27,469 nt of DNA from a virus. The stretch's first letter is position 1; each line of letters begins with the position of its first letter. Of the stretch, positions 1 to 14,878 are shown piece by piece. A program made the translations under genes and the position numbers. The notes under the pieces were generated by a model, which saw only the letters and a list, made by a program, of their open reading frames with translations, did not search any database and had not been told where the DNA came from. The stretch is from positions 1 through 27,469 of IMG/VR virus record IMGVR_UViG_3300032213_001650; one strand, written 5' to 3'.

Positions 1-302
1 ACAGTTACGGTTTTGTTTACGTTTGCATTTACGTTTTTTGCTTCTTCGACCGGGTTCCCCCTGTCCTACGGCTTCTACATTGCCGAGCTGTCCACTAATT
101 TACTTGTTGCCCTGTCGAATCTAGGTCAGGCCCTTCATAAAGAATCTATGTAATACTATCCAATAAAAATAGTTTAACGGAACTGCTAAACATAACAATA
201 TGTGATACCATTCAATATTCATAAACTTCCTTATGGTGGACCTGGGGGGATTCGCACCCCCGTCCAAGACACTTTTCTCTTTGCTTCATACAGCAATAAC
301 AC
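1..302 (-). ncRNA. ssrA: Circularly permuted (two-piece) tmRNA, cut by the window edge
   Basis: On the minus strand the acceptor piece comes first (about 302-234). It has a T-arm with GGGGG/CCCCC around TGCGAAT and ends CAGGTCCACCA. After a spacer of 100 nt the coding piece starts at 133 with GGGCCTGACC followed by the tmRNA-typical ATTCGACAGGG. GGGCCTG pairs with CAGGTCC over seven positions with one G-U, so the two parts rebuild one acceptor stem in permuted order. Further on, the stretch before and at the resume codon aligns with E. coli tmRNA (GCAAAAAA...GCAAACG). The resume codon is probably GCA at 26-24, giving a tag beginning ANVNKTVT before the sequence leaves the window. Permuted tmRNAs are known from alphaproteobacteria, some betaproteobacteria and cyanobacteria. 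tmRNA rescues stalled ribosomes. The processed ends are inferred. Confidence 0.88.
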
Positions 303-5493: not shown

Positions 5494-5744
5494 CATCAAC
5501 ATAGATTAATCCGGAATCTAACTCAACTAAGGTTAGCGATTCTATGCATCACACGTGCCTTCCACCCGCTTCCCGGCAGGGACCGTTATCGCATTGCCAG
5601 CGGCCTTTGGGTTCAAAGACTACCACCCGTAGCTGTCATACTACTTCTCATCGTGCGGGTCACACTATCCGGAGACACCCGGAACGTTCGGTAATACTGT
5701 TACTAACCAGTAACAGCAATAAATATTATATCAAACAATCATAT
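5494..5744. other. Non-coding, GC-richer spacer with several inverted repeats
   Basis: About 250 nt between the tRNA-Ala promoter and the plus-strand oxygenase gene, with no convincing ORF. Inverted repeats include TAGATT/AATCTA near 5512-5530 with a 7-nt loop, CATAGA/TCTATG spanning the same area, and a perfect 8-bp CTGTTACT/AGTAACAG hairpin with an AACC loop at about 5698-5717. AATAAATA at 5718-5725 resembles a T4-type late promoter for the downstream plus-strand gene. Its composition is less AT-rich than the neighbouring gene, as expected for a structured RNA. Confidence 0.4.
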
Positions 5745-6392
5745 ATGAATTACAGCCAATTAAAATTACCATCAAATCCACTGGCTATTGGAGCAATTGA
5801 GTATATTTCTGGCAGTGATGAAAAATGGGGACATCGATATGCAATAACTGATGTACCAAAAATTTTTAATTCTGATGTTCTTGAAATATTCAAAAATTTA
5901 AATATAACTCCTTACTGTGTTGTTATTCCAAAATGGAAAGTAGACATGATTAGCACTCCACAAGAACTAACAACATCGAGATTTTGCACACCAATACACA
6001 GTGATTATTTTCAAATTAATGGGCATCGTTACAGTTATCCGTGTGCAATTAATTGGGAATTAAATAACGATGCATACGTAACCTGGAGTTTCTGGAACGC
6101 ACATAACAACGAAAATGTTTCGTATCAAAATGAAACTTTTGCTGCACAGATAGGTCCATTGCCGTTTAATAAGACTTATCTTAATGGCACTAGATTCGAT
6201 GAAAAATCTACACTGTTAGAACAGGTTGACTTGCAACCATTTACTCCGTATCTTGTCAACACATCAATGCCACACTGTGTGGAATTTAATGTGCCGTCCG
6301 AAAGACGACTGGCACTAAGTTTACGATTCAACATTGAAGATATTGCCACTTGGGAACAGGCTGTGCAGATCTTTAAAAATTACTTTGTATAA
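5745..6392 (+). CDS. Fe(II)/2-oxoglutarate oxygenase-like protein
   Basis: A 215-residue protein starting MNYSQLKLPSNPLAIG; the open frame extends upstream, but that part is spacer. A candidate iron-binding facial triad is visible: HSD at 85-87 (H-x-D) and a distal His at 177 (SMPHCVEF), followed by arginines near 187-194 (SERRLALSLRF) that could hold 2-oxoglutarate. This order and spacing match small phage 2OG oxygenases, which hydroxylate proteins, nucleic acids or small molecules; the substrate is unknown. The gene is on the strand opposite to the tRNAs, is AT-rich, and has no clear Shine-Dalgarno sequence. An AATAAATA late-like element lies 20 nt before the ATG. Confidence 0.65.
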   Translation: MNYSQLKLPSNPLAIGAIEYISGSDEKWGHRYAITDVPKIFNSDVLEIFKNLNITPYCVVIPKWKVDMISTPQELTTSRFCTPIHSDYFQINGHRYSYPCAINWELNNDAYVTWSFWNAHNNENVSYQNETFAAQIGPLPFNKTYLNGTRFDEKSTLLEQVDLQPFTPYLVNTSMPHCVEFNVPSERRLALSLRFNIEDIATWEQAVQIFKNYFV

Positions 6393-7916: not shown

Positions 7917-7985
7917 TATTATTAATACCGCTAACATTTATCAAAGATTTGCCAAACTTTGCTACCGAGCCAGTTAAATACGCAT

Positions 7986-8972
7986 ATGAAAATTTATCTT
8001 GACGGCTTTTTCCATCAACTGTACCAACACCCAGACACCGCAACACTTTTAACAAACATAGATGAAATACCCAACGACTGCGATATAGTTGCTGTGAGTT
8101 TCTATAACAATCACTGGCAAGAGTATCAACAAACAATAAAAGAATTGTCAACCCGTACTAAAAAACTTTTGGTAAATCTTAGCGAACCTACGCCTGGTAA
8201 AATAGGATTTACAGACTTTGTTAACAGCATAAACTACAGCAATGTTTATCTGTTTAGCGATGTAGTGTTTAATCATACTGTATTGCCCACAGCTAACATA
8301 GAAACTATTATATCTTGGTTCATATGTAGTGAGAACTTATATGCGACCCAACACTGGGCCCACGAACGCATTGATAAATTACACCGTGGATTCGATCGTT
8401 CTAAACGGTTTGATTGCTTACTGGGCAAACAACGACAACATAGAGACATTATCAACACATACTACAACAACAGTCTACAGCGTGACAACATTGTGTTCTC
8501 ATATACAGGCTGTACCCAAACTGGTATTTGGGATCCAGATGTTGATCACCAACGACTGCATTGGGGAACTTCGACAGAAATACCTCGTGATGTATTTTTG
8601 CCGTTGACTATATACAATCAAACCTATTACAGCATTGTGGCCGAGACCACTACTGAAAATAGCTATAACCAGTATACTGAAAAAGTTGCCAAACCTTTGA
8701 TTGCTGGCAGGCCATTTGTGGCATTTGCCGGACAAAATTATTTGTCTAATTTACAGCGTCTGGGATTTAAAACTTTTTCGACTGTGGTAGATGAAAGTTA
8801 CGATTCCATTGGTGATTTAAATCAACGCATGAAGGCTGCATGGACTCAAGTTGAGTGGTTGTGTAGTCAGGATCCTGCCCAGGTGTACAGTGAACTCGAG
8901 GAGGTGTTGCAACATAACCACCAACATTTCTTAACTACTGACTGGCACCAGGCCATTCGAAAACATTTTTAA
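7986..8972 (+). CDS. Putative glycosyltransferase (exostosin/GT-B-like C-terminus)
   Basis: A 328-residue protein beginning MKIYLDGFFHQLYQHPDT; a start nine codons earlier is less likely. The C-terminal half has TYYSIVAETT (about 213-222) and then YTEKVAKPLIAGRPFVAFAG (230-249) and LQRLGFKTF. That TEK-KP-GxPF pattern is typical of exostosin-like and other GT-B glycosyltransferases that bind a nucleotide sugar there. The N-terminal half has alternating strands such as DCDIVAVSFY and is not diagnostic. No membrane segment or signal peptide. It is a plus-strand gene inserted in the minus-strand tRNA array, with no Shine-Dalgarno sequence but a TTAAATA element at 7974-7980 resembling a late promoter. 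The acceptor is unknown. Confidence 0.65.
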   Translation: MKIYLDGFFHQLYQHPDTATLLTNIDEIPNDCDIVAVSFYNNHWQEYQQTIKELSTRTKKLLVNLSEPTPGKIGFTDFVNSINYSNVYLFSDVVFNHTVLPTANIETIISWFICSENLYATQHWAHERIDKLHRGFDRSKRFDCLLGKQRQHRDIINTYYNNSLQRDNIVFSYTGCTQTGIWDPDVDHQRLHWGTSTEIPRDVFLPLTIYNQTYYSIVAETTTENSYNQYTEKVAKPLIAGRPFVAFAGQNYLSNLQRLGFKTFSTVVDESYDSIGDLNQRMKAAWTQVEWLCSQDPAQVYSELEEVLQHNHQHFLTTDWHQAIRKHF

Positions 8973-9377: not shown

Positions 9378-9539
9378 CTATGCAAGAAGTTGATTCTTAA
9401 CTCGTTTACGAGTTTCGAGCATCGACCTAGCACGTTCAATCTTTTCCTGGATCAACTTTTCACGTTGTTCCGGAGTCAGCGTGTACTCTGTTGTATACTT
9501 TACTTCACGCATTCGTTGTTCTAAATCTAATTTCTTCAT
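9378..9539 (-). CDS. Small charged helical protein (53 aa)
   Basis: The ATG at 9539 follows AAGGAAAA, a good ribosome binding site. The product starts MKKLDLEQRMREVKYTTEYT and continues LTPEQREKLIQEKIERARSM, then ends KNQLLA. It is almost entirely charged and predicted helical or coiled coil, with no cysteine and no membrane segment. A LTPEQ turn separates two helices. No family is recognised; a small regulator or binding protein is possible. It lies just after the terminator at 9551-9586. Confidence 0.65.
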   Translation of the reverse strand: MKKLDLEQRMREVKYTTEYTLTPEQREKLIQEKIERARSMLETRKRVKNQLLA

Positions 9540-9550
9540 TTTTCCTTTCT

Positions 9551-9586
9551 TAAAACAAAAAACCCTAGGGTTTTTAATCCTAGGGT
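9551..9586 (-). terminator. Rho-independent terminator
   Basis: On the minus strand an 8-bp stem, ACCCTAGG/CCTAGGGT with a 9-nt loop, is followed by six T, one G and four T. This is a textbook intrinsic terminator. It ends the unit started by the promoter at 9803-9831 and precedes the 53-aa gene. Confidence 0.9.
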
Positions 9587-9796
9587 CCTTGGAGTTTAAA
9601 TGTAAACTGTTGCTTACAATATGGTCTCCTGGACCCTGGTAACCTCTGGTGTGCGATTATATGACATGCTATCGATTGCTGACCAAATAGAGGGCACGAA
9701 GCCGGCCTGTTTGGCTGAACAATTTGATATAGAATGTAATACGTTTGTTTGCATTTTTGTTTCTTTATGTTTACATACACCTTTTTATTGGCGCAT
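9587..9796 (-). ncRNA. Candidate small RNA (or 66-aa protein) transcription unit
   Basis: About 210-240 nt lie between a perfect sigma70 promoter and a strong terminator, with no conserved gene. A 66-codon ORF (9780-9580, ATG preceded by AAAAAGG) ends at the terminator stem. Its composition (clustered Cys, Gln, Pro, His) does not look like a natural protein. The RNA can form a TGTAA/TTACA hairpin near 9600-9617 and a GGTCTCC-type stem near 9621-9640. A regulatory RNA is the simpler reading. Confidence 0.5.
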
Positions 9797-9802
9797 GTGT
9801 GT

Positions 9803-9831
9803 ATTATATAGAGTTATTTATACATTGTCAA
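9803..9831 (-). promoter_or_regulatory. Consensus sigma70 promoter with overlapping late-like element
   Basis: TTGACA (9831-9826), a 17-bp spacer and TATAAT (9808-9803), exact consensus in both boxes. Within the spacer, 9822-9815 reads TATAAATA, identical to the T4 late-promoter core. The unit could be used early by host RNA polymerase and later by a phage sigma factor. Confidence 0.85.
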
Positions 9832-9871: not shown

Positions 9872-10819
9872 TTACCTTGGAGGTGCAAATGAAGGAATCT
9901 TCCGAGCATAGTCTTTGTAGATGTCAATTTGCTGTTGGATAAACTCCGGCTTGAGTATAACATTCTTGGGATCAACTTGCAAGTCGCTTATTTCACTAAA
10001 GCGTTCTCTTTGGGCAGGATTGTTGTACAGCTTGACCAACGCACGTTGTACTGTTTTAACTACTTCAGGATCTGTACCGGGACTGGCAACTACGATTTGC
10101 CATACAGGTAACCACGCATCACTCATGCCAATTTCGTTAAGAGTAGGCACATCGGGCAAAGACTTAATGCGTTCGTGGCCTGCTACTGCAAAAGGAATAA
10201 CTGTACCATCCCGGATAAAGTCTTGTATTTCTAGTCTAAAACTGTAGGCAGTTTTAATTTGTCCTGTTAGCAACTCGGGCATCAACATGGCACTGCCACG
10301 ATAGGGAACATGCAACATTTTCTTATTGCCGCGATAAAATAGCACTTCGCCATCTAGGTGTGTGCCTGCACCGATGCCGCTACTGCCAAAAGTGACAGGT
10401 ACGGTGGGATCTAACCGGTCCCAGTCTGACTTGTTTCTAATCGGCATGCTTTTGTGACTTACAAAGATCATGGGTGTAGTGCCCAGATATGCCACTGGTA
10501 CCAAGTTACGATAGTTGTAGTTGGGGTTAGGAGAGATGTTCCACCACGGCAAGTTGATGTTGGTTAACAACAAGTTGTTTTCTTTGCTGTGATCTCTGGC
10601 CACTGCGCCCACTGCTAAGTCGCCGCCTGCTCCAGGTTTGTAGTCAATGATGATCCTGTTAGGAATGTCTTTTTGCAACTCAACTTGCAATGCTCGTGCA
10701 ATCTTGTCACTGTTACTGCCAGCGGCGTAACCAACGTACAGCGTAATCACTGGCAATTCTTTGGCTGTGCTAATAACTGTTAGTAGTCCTAACGCCGCTC
10801 CTATAATAATTTTTTTCAT
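9872..10819 (-). CDS. TctC/Bug-family periplasmic solute-binding protein
   Basis: A 315-residue protein of the tripartite tricarboxylate transporter receptor (Bug) family. Residues 1-20 form a signal peptide (KK, hydrophobic GAALGLLTVIST, AKE). The family pattern follows: YAAGSNSDKIARAL, the DYKPGAGGDLAVG segment (about 60-72), VPVTFGSSGIGAGTHL (about 124-139), VPYRGSAMLMPELLTGQI (about 156-173) and a SLPDVPTLNEIG stretch. Such proteins bind carboxylates or other small organic ligands in the periplasm for a TctAB permease. No permease gene is near, so the protein would serve a host transporter or have another role. Bug proteins are greatly expanded in betaproteobacteria, which may hint at the host. 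It lies 9 nt after the PP-loop gene; no strong ribosome binding site is seen. Confidence 0.93.
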   Translation of the reverse strand: MKKIIIGAALGLLTVISTAKELPVITLYVGYAAGSNSDKIARALQVELQKDIPNRIIIDYKPGAGGDLAVGAVARDHSKENNLLLTNINLPWWNISPNPNYNYRNLVPVAYLGTTPMIFVSHKSMPIRNKSDWDRLDPTVPVTFGSSGIGAGTHLDGEVLFYRGNKKMLHVPYRGSAMLMPELLTGQIKTAYSFRLEIQDFIRDGTVIPFAVAGHERIKSLPDVPTLNEIGMSDAWLPVWQIVVASPGTDPEVVKTVQRALVKLYNNPAQRERFSEISDLQVDPKNVILKPEFIQQQIDIYKDYARKIPSFAPPR

Positions 10820-10828
10820 TTTAACAAC

Positions 10829-11974
10829 TTATTCTATAAAATAATTTTTACTAACTGAACTCTTAAGACCTTTTGAAATATTTGTTGGATCATTCTTCCA
10901 ATAATCTGGAATAGTATTCCATACCTTTTCTAATCCAAACTGCCAATTTAACAAATACTGGCTGGTTGATTCTAATTTAAAAAACCATTCGTCTCTATCG
11001 GCAAATATAATACTTCTAGGTTTTGCCGCAGTAATGCCCATGCCTGGATTCCAATCTGGGTAAATCAATGCGTGTAATCCGTTGTTAGTCAATCCATACT
11101 TTTTACCATCAATAATCTTATATACCAAGTCTGCCTTGCCTTCAACTACATAAGGTAAGTCTTTTGCATTTGGTGCATCCAAATATCGTTTAACCAAGTG
11201 CGCTTGTTTGATAACAATTTCTGGTTTGTCCGGAGTCCAAAAGAATAGTTCATCTGTGTAGGGCTGTTGCCCGGCAATGCTGGTAACGTCCGGAATAAAC
11301 CCGATTGTGTCTTGGAACCGCAAACAGAACCGGCCGTCTACATGATGAATTCTGGGCTTGTCTGCTCCGTATATTATGCAGATCTTTTTACCTGCATGAA
11401 TCATGTCAGCCCACTCTTTAACTTTCATACCAAGGGATTCTTTGGCCAGTACAATTGGCGTTAAAATCATATTGGCTTGATATATCCAATTAAATTTGTT
11501 TGTTGAGCTACTGAAGTAATCTAACATCAAATCAGTAAAATCAATAATACGATGTTTAAGCCAAGGTCTTGTTTCTGTTAGACGTTTAATAGTAGGTATT
11601 GCTACTTCAACAATCTCTTTGTTTTGTACGTTGTTTTTGTCGCCTGTTGCACGATAGTTAGTAAAGCTCACTACTTCGTCCAGTTTGATATCGTTATTAA
11701 TAAACGCATCTAGCACTGTTTGACTGTCTGCACCACTGCTGTAATTTAATATAACATAGTCGTATTGGTCTCGTATTTGTTGGGCACGTTCTCTGTACAA
11801 CTCTAAAATAGAAGTAACAGGTTCTTTGGTCCAATCATAACTGCTGAACACTGCTTCGTTAAAATCCCAATGCGGATGGATACCTGTTTTGGCATGCATT
11901 TCAATTGCTTCAAATTTGCTGTGAAATTTAAGGTCACCGACTCGGTAGACGCCCATTTTGTCTTGGTGTGTCAT
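10829..11974 (-). CDS. PP-loop ATP pyrophosphatase-like protein
   Basis: Start ATG at 11974 (MTHQDKMGVYRVG...); a TTG two codons upstream is less likely. The 381-residue protein carries YVILNYSSGADS at about 73-84, a variant of the PP-loop SGGxDS motif that binds ATP in N-type ATP pyrophosphatases (asparagine synthetase, QueC, TtcA, PAPS reductase). The second position is Ser rather than Gly. Following strands (LDEVVSFTNYR) fit the fold. The C-terminal 250 residues, with many aromatic residues, match nothing I know. Such enzymes activate a carbonyl or tRNA base by adenylation; the substrate is unknown. It lies between the TauD-like and TctC genes. A TATAAATT late-like element at 11988-11981 precedes the start. 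Confidence 0.75.
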   Translation of the reverse strand: MTHQDKMGVYRVGDLKFHSKFEAIEMHAKTGIHPHWDFNEAVFSSYDWTKEPVTSILELYRERAQQIRDQYDYVILNYSSGADSQTVLDAFINNDIKLDEVVSFTNYRATGDKNNVQNKEIVEVAIPTIKRLTETRPWLKHRIIDFTDLMLDYFSSSTNKFNWIYQANMILTPIVLAKESLGMKVKEWADMIHAGKKICIIYGADKPRIHHVDGRFCLRFQDTIGFIPDVTSIAGQQPYTDELFFWTPDKPEIVIKQAHLVKRYLDAPNAKDLPYVVEGKADLVYKIIDGKKYGLTNNGLHALIYPDWNPGMGITAAKPRSIIFADRDEWFFKLESTSQYLLNWQFGLEKVWNTIPDYWKNDPTNISKGLKSSVSKNYFIE

Positions 11975-11988
11975 TCTCAAAATTTATA

Positions 11989-13185
11989 TTAATATGATCC
12001 GATGGTACTGTAACTAGGATCAGACTTTAACAAATCTTTAACTTGATCTTTTGGAAATCTATTTAAAAATTCCCTACGCTCGTCGCCTGCTAGTTCGCTA
12101 ATAGTGGTTTTCATTTCACGGAGTTGATTTAATTTTCCAACTTCTAATATTAGCTTCATAGATTCATTACGTTTGCTAATATATGGTTCTTGAAAATATG
12201 GATTATAATCTTCTAGTCCTGCATAATCCATTGGGCAACGATATCCTAGTCTTTGCGTTAGCTCTTTGGTCATGTCAAGTCCTGGACGAATACTTCTGTT
12301 ATGAACCATTATGGTATTATCAAACAATAGTAAATCGCCACTGTCATTTTCCCACCAGTGATCGTAAACGTATGTTTCGTTAAAAACTTCTGTGCGTATG
12401 CGATCTACTAACTTATCGGACTCTGTTTGACTCATGCCTTTAAATCCAATAATGGTGTGCTCGCTGAAATGTAATCCGGTTATACCGCCTGGACTTTTTA
12501 TTACTAACGGCATTTCGACCATATCGTCAGAGCTCCCGGTGAAATTACCTTTCATTGCAATATCATAACGATCGTCTGCTTGCGGCTCAATTGCTTTGGG
12601 TTTCCACTTGTGTTGCGCTACTAATTCTTTTAGCTCACTTTGAAATGCCTGTGTTTGTTGTTCATACCAATCAGTCATTTGACAAAAGCCAGTGGCACTA
12701 GTACTCATGTGCTGTGCGCCGTACAGTGCAACCAATGGAGCAAAACTATAAATGCCGCTTTCGTTGCTGTGCCACAGCAATTCTGTATCACCAAAGATAC
12801 CAGTTAAGTCACCCTGTGCATCTCGTTTACCGGTTACTCGTGACCAATTATGAGGGCTAAGTCCGTAATCCTCGGTCATTTTCCATTTACTTACAACTGA
12901 AAAACTGATTTGGTCGTCCTCGTCCCATGAATCAAATTTGTTAATAAAGTCTGTGCCATATTTTTTAATGTAATAGGCGTCACGACTTCGGCGACTTGTG
13001 CCTAGCAAGTATATGTTCTTGATAATAGATCTAAAATTCTGTGTTGTCCCATTTCCTCGAACTACAGTTAGCAATGTTTTAAGATTAACCTCTTGTAGTT
13101 CTTTCCAAGCATCGATGCTATCCCATTCGAAGTTGTCAACATACGCACCGAAACTACCGAGTCCGTTAATTTTTGTGATTTTCAT
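11989..13185 (-). CDS. TauD/TfdA-like oxygenase with altered iron motif
   Basis: A 398-residue protein with TauD/TfdA-type organisation. The proximal metal motif is LLWHSNESG (H139, S140, N141), where the family has WHTD. The distal part has DLLLFDNTIMVHNRSIR, with His295 as the distal ligand and Arg297 or Arg300 as a 2-oxoglutarate-binding candidate. Family members are Fe(II)/2OG dioxygenases of taurine, herbicides or amino acids. Asn in place of the metal-binding Asp is unusual; loss of this carboxylate is known in 2OG halogenases, but there it becomes Ala or Gly. The ATG is preceded by AAGGA and a perfect TATAAATA at 13211-13204. Substrate unknown. Confidence 0.78.
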   Translation of the reverse strand: MKITKINGLGSFGAYVDNFEWDSIDAWKELQEVNLKTLLTVVRGNGTTQNFRSIIKNIYLLGTSRRSRDAYYIKKYGTDFINKFDSWDEDDQISFSVVSKWKMTEDYGLSPHNWSRVTGKRDAQGDLTGIFGDTELLWHSNESGIYSFAPLVALYGAQHMSTSATGFCQMTDWYEQQTQAFQSELKELVAQHKWKPKAIEPQADDRYDIAMKGNFTGSSDDMVEMPLVIKSPGGITGLHFSEHTIIGFKGMSQTESDKLVDRIRTEVFNETYVYDHWWENDSGDLLLFDNTIMVHNRSIRPGLDMTKELTQRLGYRCPMDYAGLEDYNPYFQEPYISKRNESMKLILEVGKLNQLREMKTTISELAGDERREFLNRFPKDQVKDLLKSDPSYSTIGSY

Positions 13186-13203
13186 TGATGTGTTCCTTAA
13201 AAA

Positions 13204-13211
13204 TATTTATA
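13204..13211 (-). promoter_or_regulatory. T4-type late promoter core
   Basis: TATAAATA, the T4 late consensus, ends 18 nt before the ATG of the TauD-like gene. It lies in the 67-bp divergent spacer shared with the plus-strand radical SAM gene. Confidence 0.6.
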
Positions 13212-13252
13212 GATATTGCCAATGGTGCAATAGATTTACTAAGTATACTCAC

Positions 13253-14878
13253 ATGAAGATTAAATTTTTGCTTAATCAAGTTAACAACCCTTATCAGATT
13301 ACAATCAATCCGTTGTTCTTTTTTATAAAAACATATTACGATATGTATGGAATGAATGATCTAGTTGAGTGGCTAAGGTGCGAGCACGTGATATTTGATT
13401 CTGTTGAAAAATCGGCAGAAGCTATTGTAGCAGCCGGCGTTGATGTGCTTGGCTTATCTGTATTTATATGGAACGAAGATTATCAATATGCAATGGCTAA
13501 ACGAGTCAAAGAACTTGATCCTAGTATTGTAATTGTGTTCGGCGGTCCTCAATTGGACGCACACAAGAACCCTGACTTCTTTAAGACACATCCATATGTA
13601 GATTGGGTGTGTTATGGAGACGGTGAAAAAGCATTCCAATTATTAGTAGATAAAATTAGTAATTTGTACAATGGCCCGCTGATCAACATGGTTGAAAATA
13701 TCAATGGTACTACAGTAGTACATGACTATGAAATTATCAGTGATGAAAAATATCTGAGCATAGGTTCGTTAACTGCTCAAAAAGATATCATTTTAGATAC
13801 GCTTGAATATCTTAAAAAGCATGATATAACAAATAAACAACTTTATTTTGCTGTAGAGTTTGCTCGCGGGTGCATGTACAGTTGTAGTTTTTGTGACTGG
13901 AGTCAAAATTTAACTAAAAAAGTTAAACGTAGAACACACAACTGGCGTGCCGAAATAGACTTATTACATGAAATTGATGTGAGTGTTCGTGAAACTGATG
14001 CAAACTTTGGACAATGGAAAGAAGACCTTGAAATATTTGACTATGCAGTAAGTCTGTACGATCCTGCTAGGACCTTTAAATTTGTTGTAAGCAATACTTC
14101 TAAACTAAACAAAGATGCAACTTTCCACATTATGACTACCCAAGCAAAAAAGTACAATGCACCTGCAGTAGTAAGCATTCAAGACTTTGATGCCGATGTT
14201 CTTAAAAATATAGATCGTCCTGGACTTAATTACGAACAACAAGTAGATTTTATTAAAAGATTGTTTGTTGAGCTGTACGATCAAACCCATTTAGTCACTA
14301 TACAGATTATCATTGGGCTGCCTGGGCAAACATATGAAAGTATTAAAGATACTGTTATTAAAACATATGAACTAGGTATTTCTAATCATATGATTTTTCC
14401 ATTTGCTTATCTAATAAACAGTCCGTCTGCTGATAAACTGTATGAAAAAATGCACGGGTTAAAGTGGAAAAAAACTTTTGGGTTGAATGGCTATTTTGAA
14501 AGCGTTAACTATTCTGACATACCAGTGAACACAGACGATTTAGAATCTTTGTACATAAAAGCTAAAGATAACGAACTGATCGAAGGCATGTGGGCGTCAA
14601 GTACTACACTGTATGAAACAAATACATTAAGTTTCCGTGACTATATACGATCGCATATTTTTATAACACTTAGTAAACAGTTTCAAAGAAAAATGGTAGA
14701 AAACAAGTTGCCTGTAAACTATAAAAAAATGTACACTGTGTTTGACTCTAAAGTCAATCAGTTGACTGATCATTATTTAAGAGTACATGGACCGTTAATT
14801 GAAAAATATAATGTGTATATGATGGCCATTCCGGAAATAGATAGCAAAGTACTTAACAGATTCTCGGCGTTGATTTAA
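13253..14878 (+). CDS. B12-binding-domain radical SAM enzyme (second)
   Basis: The start is the ATG at 13253 (MKIKFLLNQV); the frame is open further upstream across the divergent gene, which is not coding. The 541-residue protein has an N-terminal cobalamin-binding-like domain (VDVLGLSVFIWN about 63-74, IVIVFGGPQLD about 92-102, VDWVCYGDGE about 116-125), without the DxHxxG cobalt-ligand motif. The radical SAM core has ARGCMYSCSFCDW (C207, C211, C214) and IIIGLPGQTYESI downstream. It differs from the rSAM protein at 2728-4212 and is not a duplicate. The layout is that of class B methyltransferases and similar enzymes. Substrate unknown. Its stop overlaps the stop region of the convergent 14875 gene by 4 nt. 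Confidence 0.9.
   Translation: MKIKFLLNQVNNPYQITINPLFFFIKTYYDMYGMNDLVEWLRCEHVIFDSVEKSAEAIVAAGVDVLGLSVFIWNEDYQYAMAKRVKELDPSIVIVFGGPQLDAHKNPDFFKTHPYVDWVCYGDGEKAFQLLVDKISNLYNGPLINMVENINGTTVVHDYEIISDEKYLSIGSLTAQKDIILDTLEYLKKHDITNKQLYFAVEFARGCMYSCSFCDWSQNLTKKVKRRTHNWRAEIDLLHEIDVSVRETDANFGQWKEDLEIFDYAVSLYDPARTFKFVVSNTSKLNKDATFHIMTTQAKKYNAPAVVSIQDFDADVLKNIDRPGLNYEQQVDFIKRLFVELYDQTHLVTIQIIIGLPGQTYESIKDTVIKTYELGISNHMIFPFAYLINSPSADKLYEKMHGLKWKKTFGLNGYFESVNYSDIPVNTDDLESLYIKAKDNELIEGMWASSTTLYETNTLSFRDYIRSHIFITLSKQFQRKMVENKLPVNYKKMYTVFDSKVNQLTDHYLRVHGPLIEKYNVYMMAIPEIDSKVLNRFSALI

Follow-up and report, generated by a model that had tools for sequence, protein, structure and literature searches.

The locus analysed here raises the question of what a strong, short transcription unit does at the head of a phage tRNA array. 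The window, i.e. the whole stretch of DNA that was analysed, comprises the 27,469 bases of an IMG/VR virus record; 21 tRNA genes lie between 9153 and 856, every one of them on the minus strand. A sequence-only reading had described the promoter and terminator upstream of these genes as an isolated, untranslated unit with no conserved gene between the two signals, and as a candidate for a regulatory RNA. Here we report that the unit is very probably a ribosome-mediated transcription attenuator, which heads the tRNA array and tests every aminoacyl-tRNA. The features on which the analysis is based are as follows.

12998-14878 (+) and 9872-13185 (-): host-like metabolic genes beside the array (TctC-type receptor, TauD-type dioxygenase, B12-binding radical SAM protein)
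9803..9831 (-): sigma-70-type promoter, TTGACA at 9831-9826, 17-nt spacer, TATAAT at 9808-9803; 12/12 match
9815..9822 (-): TATAAATA, T4-type late promoter core within the spacer, proposed from TAAATA conservation and the T4-type Gp23 capsid in relatives
9775..9798 (-): 5' UTR hairpin ACAUGCGCC(aauaaaaa)GGUGUAUGU, just 3' of the predicted start site
9614..9754 (-): leader ORF MQTNVLHSISNCSAKQAGFVPSIWSAIDSMSYNRTPEVTRVQETIL, 46 codons plus TAA, with all 20 amino acids by codon 37
9626..9636 (-): antiterminator 5' arm, GGGTCC-A-GGAG, inside the ORF end
9583..9594 (-): antiterminator 3' arm, CTCC-AA-GGACCC, 3' of the stop codon; the terminator uses its ACCC as well
9562..9586 (-): intrinsic terminator, stem ACCCTAGG at 9586-9579, N9, CCTAGGGT at 9569-9562; T run at 9562-9557
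9378..9539 (-): first gene behind the putative attenuator, encoding a 53-aa protein (..TLTPEQREKLIQEKIERA..)
9153-9079 (-) and 9070-8979 (-): tRNA-Cys (GCA) and tRNA-Ile (UAU), the first tRNAs of the array, which extends to 856 and comprises 21 tRNAs
7959-8972 (+) and 5544-6392 (+): long plus-strand ORFs inside the array, 337 aa and 282 aa, without family match
4212-2728: another radical SAM protein
13..295 (-): permuted (two-piece type) tmRNA at the far end of the tRNA block (Rfam RF04321, 97 bits)

The promoter is exactly what the sequence-only reading had claimed, and it is the sole 12/12 match to TTGACA-17-TATAAT within the 20 kb scanned. All 106 distinct leaders collected from relatives, as described below, have a promoter of the type TTGACA-17-TA[TC]AAT in which the spacing is 17 nt and 10 or more of the 12 bases match. 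The late promoter core reported within the spacer is likewise present, and a core resembling TATAAATA is found at -10, as in T4-type late promoters. By itself TATAAATA is not rarer in the window than chance predicts (3 seen versus 1.7 expected), but its placement is conserved: TAAATA occurs in 65 of 105 promoter spacers versus 2.4% of shuffled spacers. Late use of the promoter is plausible for T4-type phages. Many of the spacers without TAAATA (e.g. L152, L196, L065 and L186) carry short inverted repeats with changing arms, such as GCGT-TGAAAG-ACGC, GTGT-TGAAAG-ACAC and ATGC-TGAAAG-GCAT, as if an alternative control element stood in place of the late promoter.

The RNA between promoter and terminator folds with a z score of -5.2 relative to shuffled sequences. 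Its 5' UTR hairpin, which possibly serves RNA stability or pausing, is conserved only in part among relatives and is absent from leaders with a 5' UTR of 0-4 nt. In L015, L017, L072, L078, L083 and L138 1-4 nt separate the leader ATG from the predicted transcription start, so that in this group the ORF, if translated, would be carried by a leaderless mRNA.

A search with the 53-aa product retrieved 17 contigs, each with a promoter-terminator unit directly upstream of the corresponding gene. Their alignment revealed a conserved gene between the two signals, where none had been recognised: a 46-codon ATG ORF at 9754-9614 (-). Its frame differs from that of the 66-codon GTG ORF at 9780-9580, whose conservation had been proposed as a check. 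The latter is not the conserved frame. When the window and L015 are compared over the 46-codon ORF, pS is 0.45 versus a pN of 0.13 and the differences fall mostly in third positions, a pattern that is less clear in other pairs. Such a synonymous pattern, indicative of coding, had been named as evidence against a regulatory RNA if it appeared in the 66-codon ORF; it does appear, but in the 46-codon frame. The unit is thus probably translated, contrary to the earlier description, as the short ORF is conserved and its stop codon is built into the antiterminator hairpin described below.

A peptide-profile search extended the set to 71 loci, and an independent search with the RNA pattern GGGTCCNGGAG...AAGGACCCNAGG alone returned 116 stretches. 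Nearly all of the RNA-pattern stretches examined contain an ATG ORF of 41-51 codons with its stop 3-12 nt past GGAG, and this ORF persists even where the peptide is barely recognisable. Both searches, made on IMG/VR contigs, were pooled into the 106 distinct leader peptides, with 51 loci contributed by the RNA scan only. Mean identity among the peptides is 43%. AKQAGFMPxYW and DRTPE are recurrent motifs, and between the window and L015 their codons differ synonymously; in L154, L188 and L136 there is little peptide similarity, and the length, the complete amino acid content and the stop position are kept. Neither Pfam nor PHROGs contains a match to the leader peptide, and the leader RNA fits no Rfam family, including T-box, at gathering or relaxed thresholds. 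Sub-threshold matches to SpF39, t44, the rimP leader and IsrM at the relaxed threshold were judged to be chance.

The textbook terminator reported downstream of the promoter was confirmed at 9586-9557 (-), between the leader ORF and the operon. Every relative has the terminator stem and T run, with a compensatory T-A to C-G change. GGGTCC lies near the ORF end in 70 of the 71 leaders of the peptide-found set, and GGACCC follows the stop codon in every leader, continuous with the terminator stem. The antiterminator is composed of GGGUCC:GGACCC, GGAG:CUCC and an apical stem; it overlaps the leader ORF and takes up the ACCC that the terminator requires, such that the two structures exclude each other. 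In nearly all folds inspected the stop codon is within or borders the apical stem. This stem is diverse in sequence, yet each of the 95 distinct inner segments is more stably folded than its shuffled versions (mean z -3.9). RNAalifold applied to the whole leader recovered the antiterminator and no pause hairpin within the ORF.

Two further observations concern the conservation of the antiterminator itself. Among relatives GGGTCC occurs in all three reading frames of the leader ORF (75, 26 and 5 leaders), and is therefore kept as RNA and not as peptide. The base 5' of GGGTCC covaries with the base 3' of GGACCC (A-U 60, G-C 37, G-U 8, C-U 1, A-C 0), with a Fisher p of 7e-21 and at least 8 changes on the tree; the same GGACCC-flanking base also covaries with its terminator partner (T-A 28, T-G 41, C-G 37, C-A 0; p 1e-6), both p values being inflated by closely related sequences, so that the count of independent changes is the safer figure. 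Covariation is restricted to these neighbouring pairs, since the core GGGTCC/GGACCC does not vary and served in part to find the leaders.

The fold of the free downstream RNA was computed for each codon in the ribosomal A-site, taking RNA as free from +12 nt of the first base of the codon (assumed footprint). With the A-site up to codon 36 of the window leader, the predicted probability of the antiterminator is at least 0.86 and mostly about 1; from codon 37 onwards that of the terminator is about 1. Across all leaders the flip to the terminator is predicted four to five codons upstream of GGGTCC. With the flip at codon 37, a stall on almost any earlier codon would leave the antiterminator free to form, and full reading would force termination. 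For RNA without ribosomes the antiterminator is predicted, and not the terminator expected under superattenuation of an untranslated leader.

At codon 37, the predicted flip point, the window peptide has the glutamate with which its set of 20 amino acids becomes complete. The complete set is present in 93 of the 106 leaders, while 11 lack one amino acid and 2 lack two (15 residues missing overall); because of these 13 leaders the rule is strong and not absolute. Several null models were compared with this figure. All 20 amino acids are contained in 2.6% of the 46-residue windows of long proteins from the same loci and in 2.7% of peptides drawn at random from the composition of the leaders. Shuffling within alignment columns gave 21.9 +/- 3.6 complete peptides (maximum 35) and 140 missing residues. 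Simulation along the peptide tree, in which each column kept its own profile and the ancestor had all 20, gave 24.6 +/- 8.7 (maximum 53). At loci found by the RNA scan only, 45 of 51 peptides are complete.

Trp, Cys, His and Tyr are each present as a single copy in 85-92 of the 106 leaders, and among the listed peptides that were inspected Cys, His, Tyr and Lys shift sites, a residue lost at one position being carried at another. The set is filled upstream of the GGGTCC arm in 80 of the 93 complete leaders versus 28% of permuted peptides. When Leu, Arg, Ser and Ile are each split into two codon classes, all 24 isoacceptor classes are represented in 55 of 106 leaders, compared with 17.8 (maximum 30) when synonymous codons are redrawn and 5.8 (maximum 18) in the tree simulation. 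Judged by these sequence comparisons, selection keeps all 20 amino acids in the peptide ahead of the switch point, and often each of the 24 main isoacceptor classes as well. Codon choice in this sensing part is skewed: GAT, CAT and TAT account for 0.95-0.99 of Asp, His and Tyr codons versus 0.56-0.63 in long ORFs, and GAG for 0.90 of Glu codons versus 0.19, possibly for slow decoding or RNA structure.

The unit is also not isolated, as had been supposed, but is the leader of the tRNA array. At least three same-strand tRNAs (median 16) lie behind all 76 leaders that have at least 2 kb of downstream sequence, and eight contigs of 215-383 kb contain the element exactly once each, with tRNAs behind it. 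The operon supplies tRNAs of many specificities, matching the codons of the leader. Its first product, the 53-aa protein, has no match in Pfam or PHROG. In most relatives a protein family of 50-58 aa (..TLTPEQ..KLI..K.ERA..) begins about 40 nt past the terminator; as the first operon gene it may act on translation or tRNA. The tmRNA would rescue stalled ribosomes, and its presence in the block fits with expression of the block upon translation failure. The array contains candidate internal promoters, e.g. at 7370-7342 and 7272-7244, and together with the plus-strand ORFs listed above these possible promoters imply that the leader may govern only part of the array. Altogether, the comparisons of sequence establish the conserved ORF, the alternative structures, the constraint to a complete amino acid set and the association with tRNA arrays.

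Other explanations account for parts of these data. The same architecture would respond to any stall, and antitermination is predicted for the untranslated RNA, both of which are compatible with a general translation-speed attenuator that senses any slow-down of the ribosome (poor initiation, ribosome-targeting stress) and for which the peptide content is irrelevant, in the manner of leaders ahead of antibiotic resistance genes; bmrB of Bacillus subtilis (PMC4191407) and mef(E)/mel (PMC4335068) are known cases. We consider such a device unlikely, as it leaves unexplained both the complete amino acid content of 93 of 106 divergent peptides and the over-coverage of isoacceptor classes. That content is equally unexplained if the peptide AKQAGFMPxYW...DRTPE itself stalled the ribosome on a ligand in the manner of TnaC. 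The conserved Trp- and Pro-containing motifs are loosely TnaC-like, but L136, L154 and L188 retain them only in altered form or not at all, and the distance from W to the P of DRTPE varies from about 9 to 15 residues. The likeness to TnaC (W...D..P) was dropped on account of this inconstant spacing, and nascent-peptide arrest is highly improbable.

The ORF might instead encode a small functional phage protein of about 46 aa, translated from a monocistronic mRNA that ends at an ordinary terminator, in which case the tRNA genes would have promoters of their own. The recurrence of the two motifs with synonymous changes between the window and L015 is what such a protein would show; however, L154, L188 and L136 have little peptide similarity and still keep length, amino acid content and stop position, the C-terminal codons are in three frames among relatives, the stop codon belongs to a conserved hairpin, and the protein databases gave no match, all of which makes this reading very unlikely. 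A trans-acting, untranslated regulatory RNA transcribed from overlapping early and late promoters would agree with the strong promoter, the strong terminator, the stable fold and the conservation of early and late core elements. It leaves aside that in nearly every relative an ATG ORF of 41-51 codons ends between the antiterminator arms, with all 20 amino acids in about 88%, that the position ahead of tRNA arrays is invariant and that no Rfam family matches, and its probability is next to negligible. What stands of the sequence-only reading is a strong, short, terminated unit in which elements of an early-type promoter and a late core overlap, and whose conservation marks it as regulatory; it is, in all likelihood, a cis-acting translated attenuator leader and not a trans-acting sRNA.

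How the attenuator would respond when tRNA is short, which way it would switch in vivo and how the phage would profit are inferred as follows. RNA polymerase would initiate at the strong promoter and a ribosome would start on the leader ORF of 46 codons. Given prompt decoding of every codon class, this ribosome would reach the ORF end and cover GGGUCCAGGAG, leaving the GGACCC strand free, whereupon the terminator would form and transcription would stop ahead of the tRNA genes. A stall on almost any codon for want of the charged tRNA, or the absence of a loaded ribosome, would instead let GGGUCC pair with GGACCC; no terminator would form and the polymerase would read through into the 53-aa gene and the tRNAs. 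The array would thus be off while translation runs well and be released when any charged tRNA is short. The proposed benefit is the replacement of host tRNAs exhausted or destroyed in infection, e.g. by tRNA-cleaving defences. Since all 20 amino acids are placed upstream of the switch, the leader would test the whole tRNA pool and not one amino acid. We lean towards the wider reading that giant T4-type phages carry a single-copy, universal sensor of aminoacyl-tRNA sufficiency, with a peptide selected for every amino acid and most isoacceptor classes, which releases the phage's own tRNA array once any tRNA becomes limiting, e.g. under a tRNA-cleaving defence of the host.

Seven of the eight large contigs that carry the leader encode a T4-type Gp23 capsid. 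For the one contig tested by capsid similarity, the nearest cultured phages are Vibrio phage 2.275.O, Sinorhizobium phage Phosso, PA5oct and Serratia phage BF. The GGGTCC...GGACCC element is absent from Vibrio phage 2.275.O, PA5oct and Serratia phage BF, and Sinorhizobium phage Phosso has one match, which looks unrelated. A non-exhaustive inspection of small ORFs with 19-20 amino acids near the tRNA arrays of the cultured relatives gave no convincing leader, nor did a search of a phage collection with three leader peptides, three leader DNA stretches and two versions of the 53-aa product give a convincing match. In these searches, accordingly, no cultured phage with this leader was found. Five matches to the RNA pattern in genome contigs have no matching ORF or terminator and were judged to be chance.

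The leader shares a short leader ORF, an intrinsic terminator, a mutually exclusive antiterminator and a decision by ribosome position with the attenuators of amino acid operons (trp, his, leu, thr, ilvGMEDA, ilvBN, pheA). In amino acid operons the regulatory codons of the leader specify one amino acid, or a few, made by that operon, whereas the phage leader covers all 20, most of them with one or a few codons each, and would control a phage tRNA array. bmrB of Bacillus subtilis and mef(E)/mel of Streptococcus pneumoniae also combine a leader peptide with terminator read-through on a ribosome stall; unlike the phage leader they respond to ribosome-bound drugs, and to our knowledge they have neither the complete amino acid content nor tRNA targets. 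T-box riboswitches are alike in that uncharged tRNA is sensed and termination is controlled. They bind tRNA directly, without translation, whereas the sensing element of the phage leader is an ORF, and no Rfam T-box match was found. In trp-type leaders the terminator forms without translation (PMC1183508), while the untranslated phage leader is predicted to antiterminate, the trp-type behaviour being a feature that is not common to all attenuators.

Phage tRNA arrays have been described as a counter-defence against tRNA-cleaving systems that replaces lost host tRNAs (PMC10264068, PMC11555353). Both of these studies deal with the tRNAs themselves, and PMC10264068 makes no mention of an attenuator or leader. 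The open-licence literature contained no precedent for a leader peptide with all 20 amino acids or for attenuation of phage tRNA genes, and as far as we found this would be the first leader peptide under selection for all twenty. If the mechanism holds, the tRNAs would be an emergency supply upon tRNA loss and not a constant compensation for codon usage, and the leader would offer a ready-made reporter of charging across the whole tRNA pool. An ordinary-looking promoter-terminator unit thus appears to be a new variety of ribosome-mediated attenuator, one that tests the whole tRNA pool before it holds back or releases the phage's own tRNAs.
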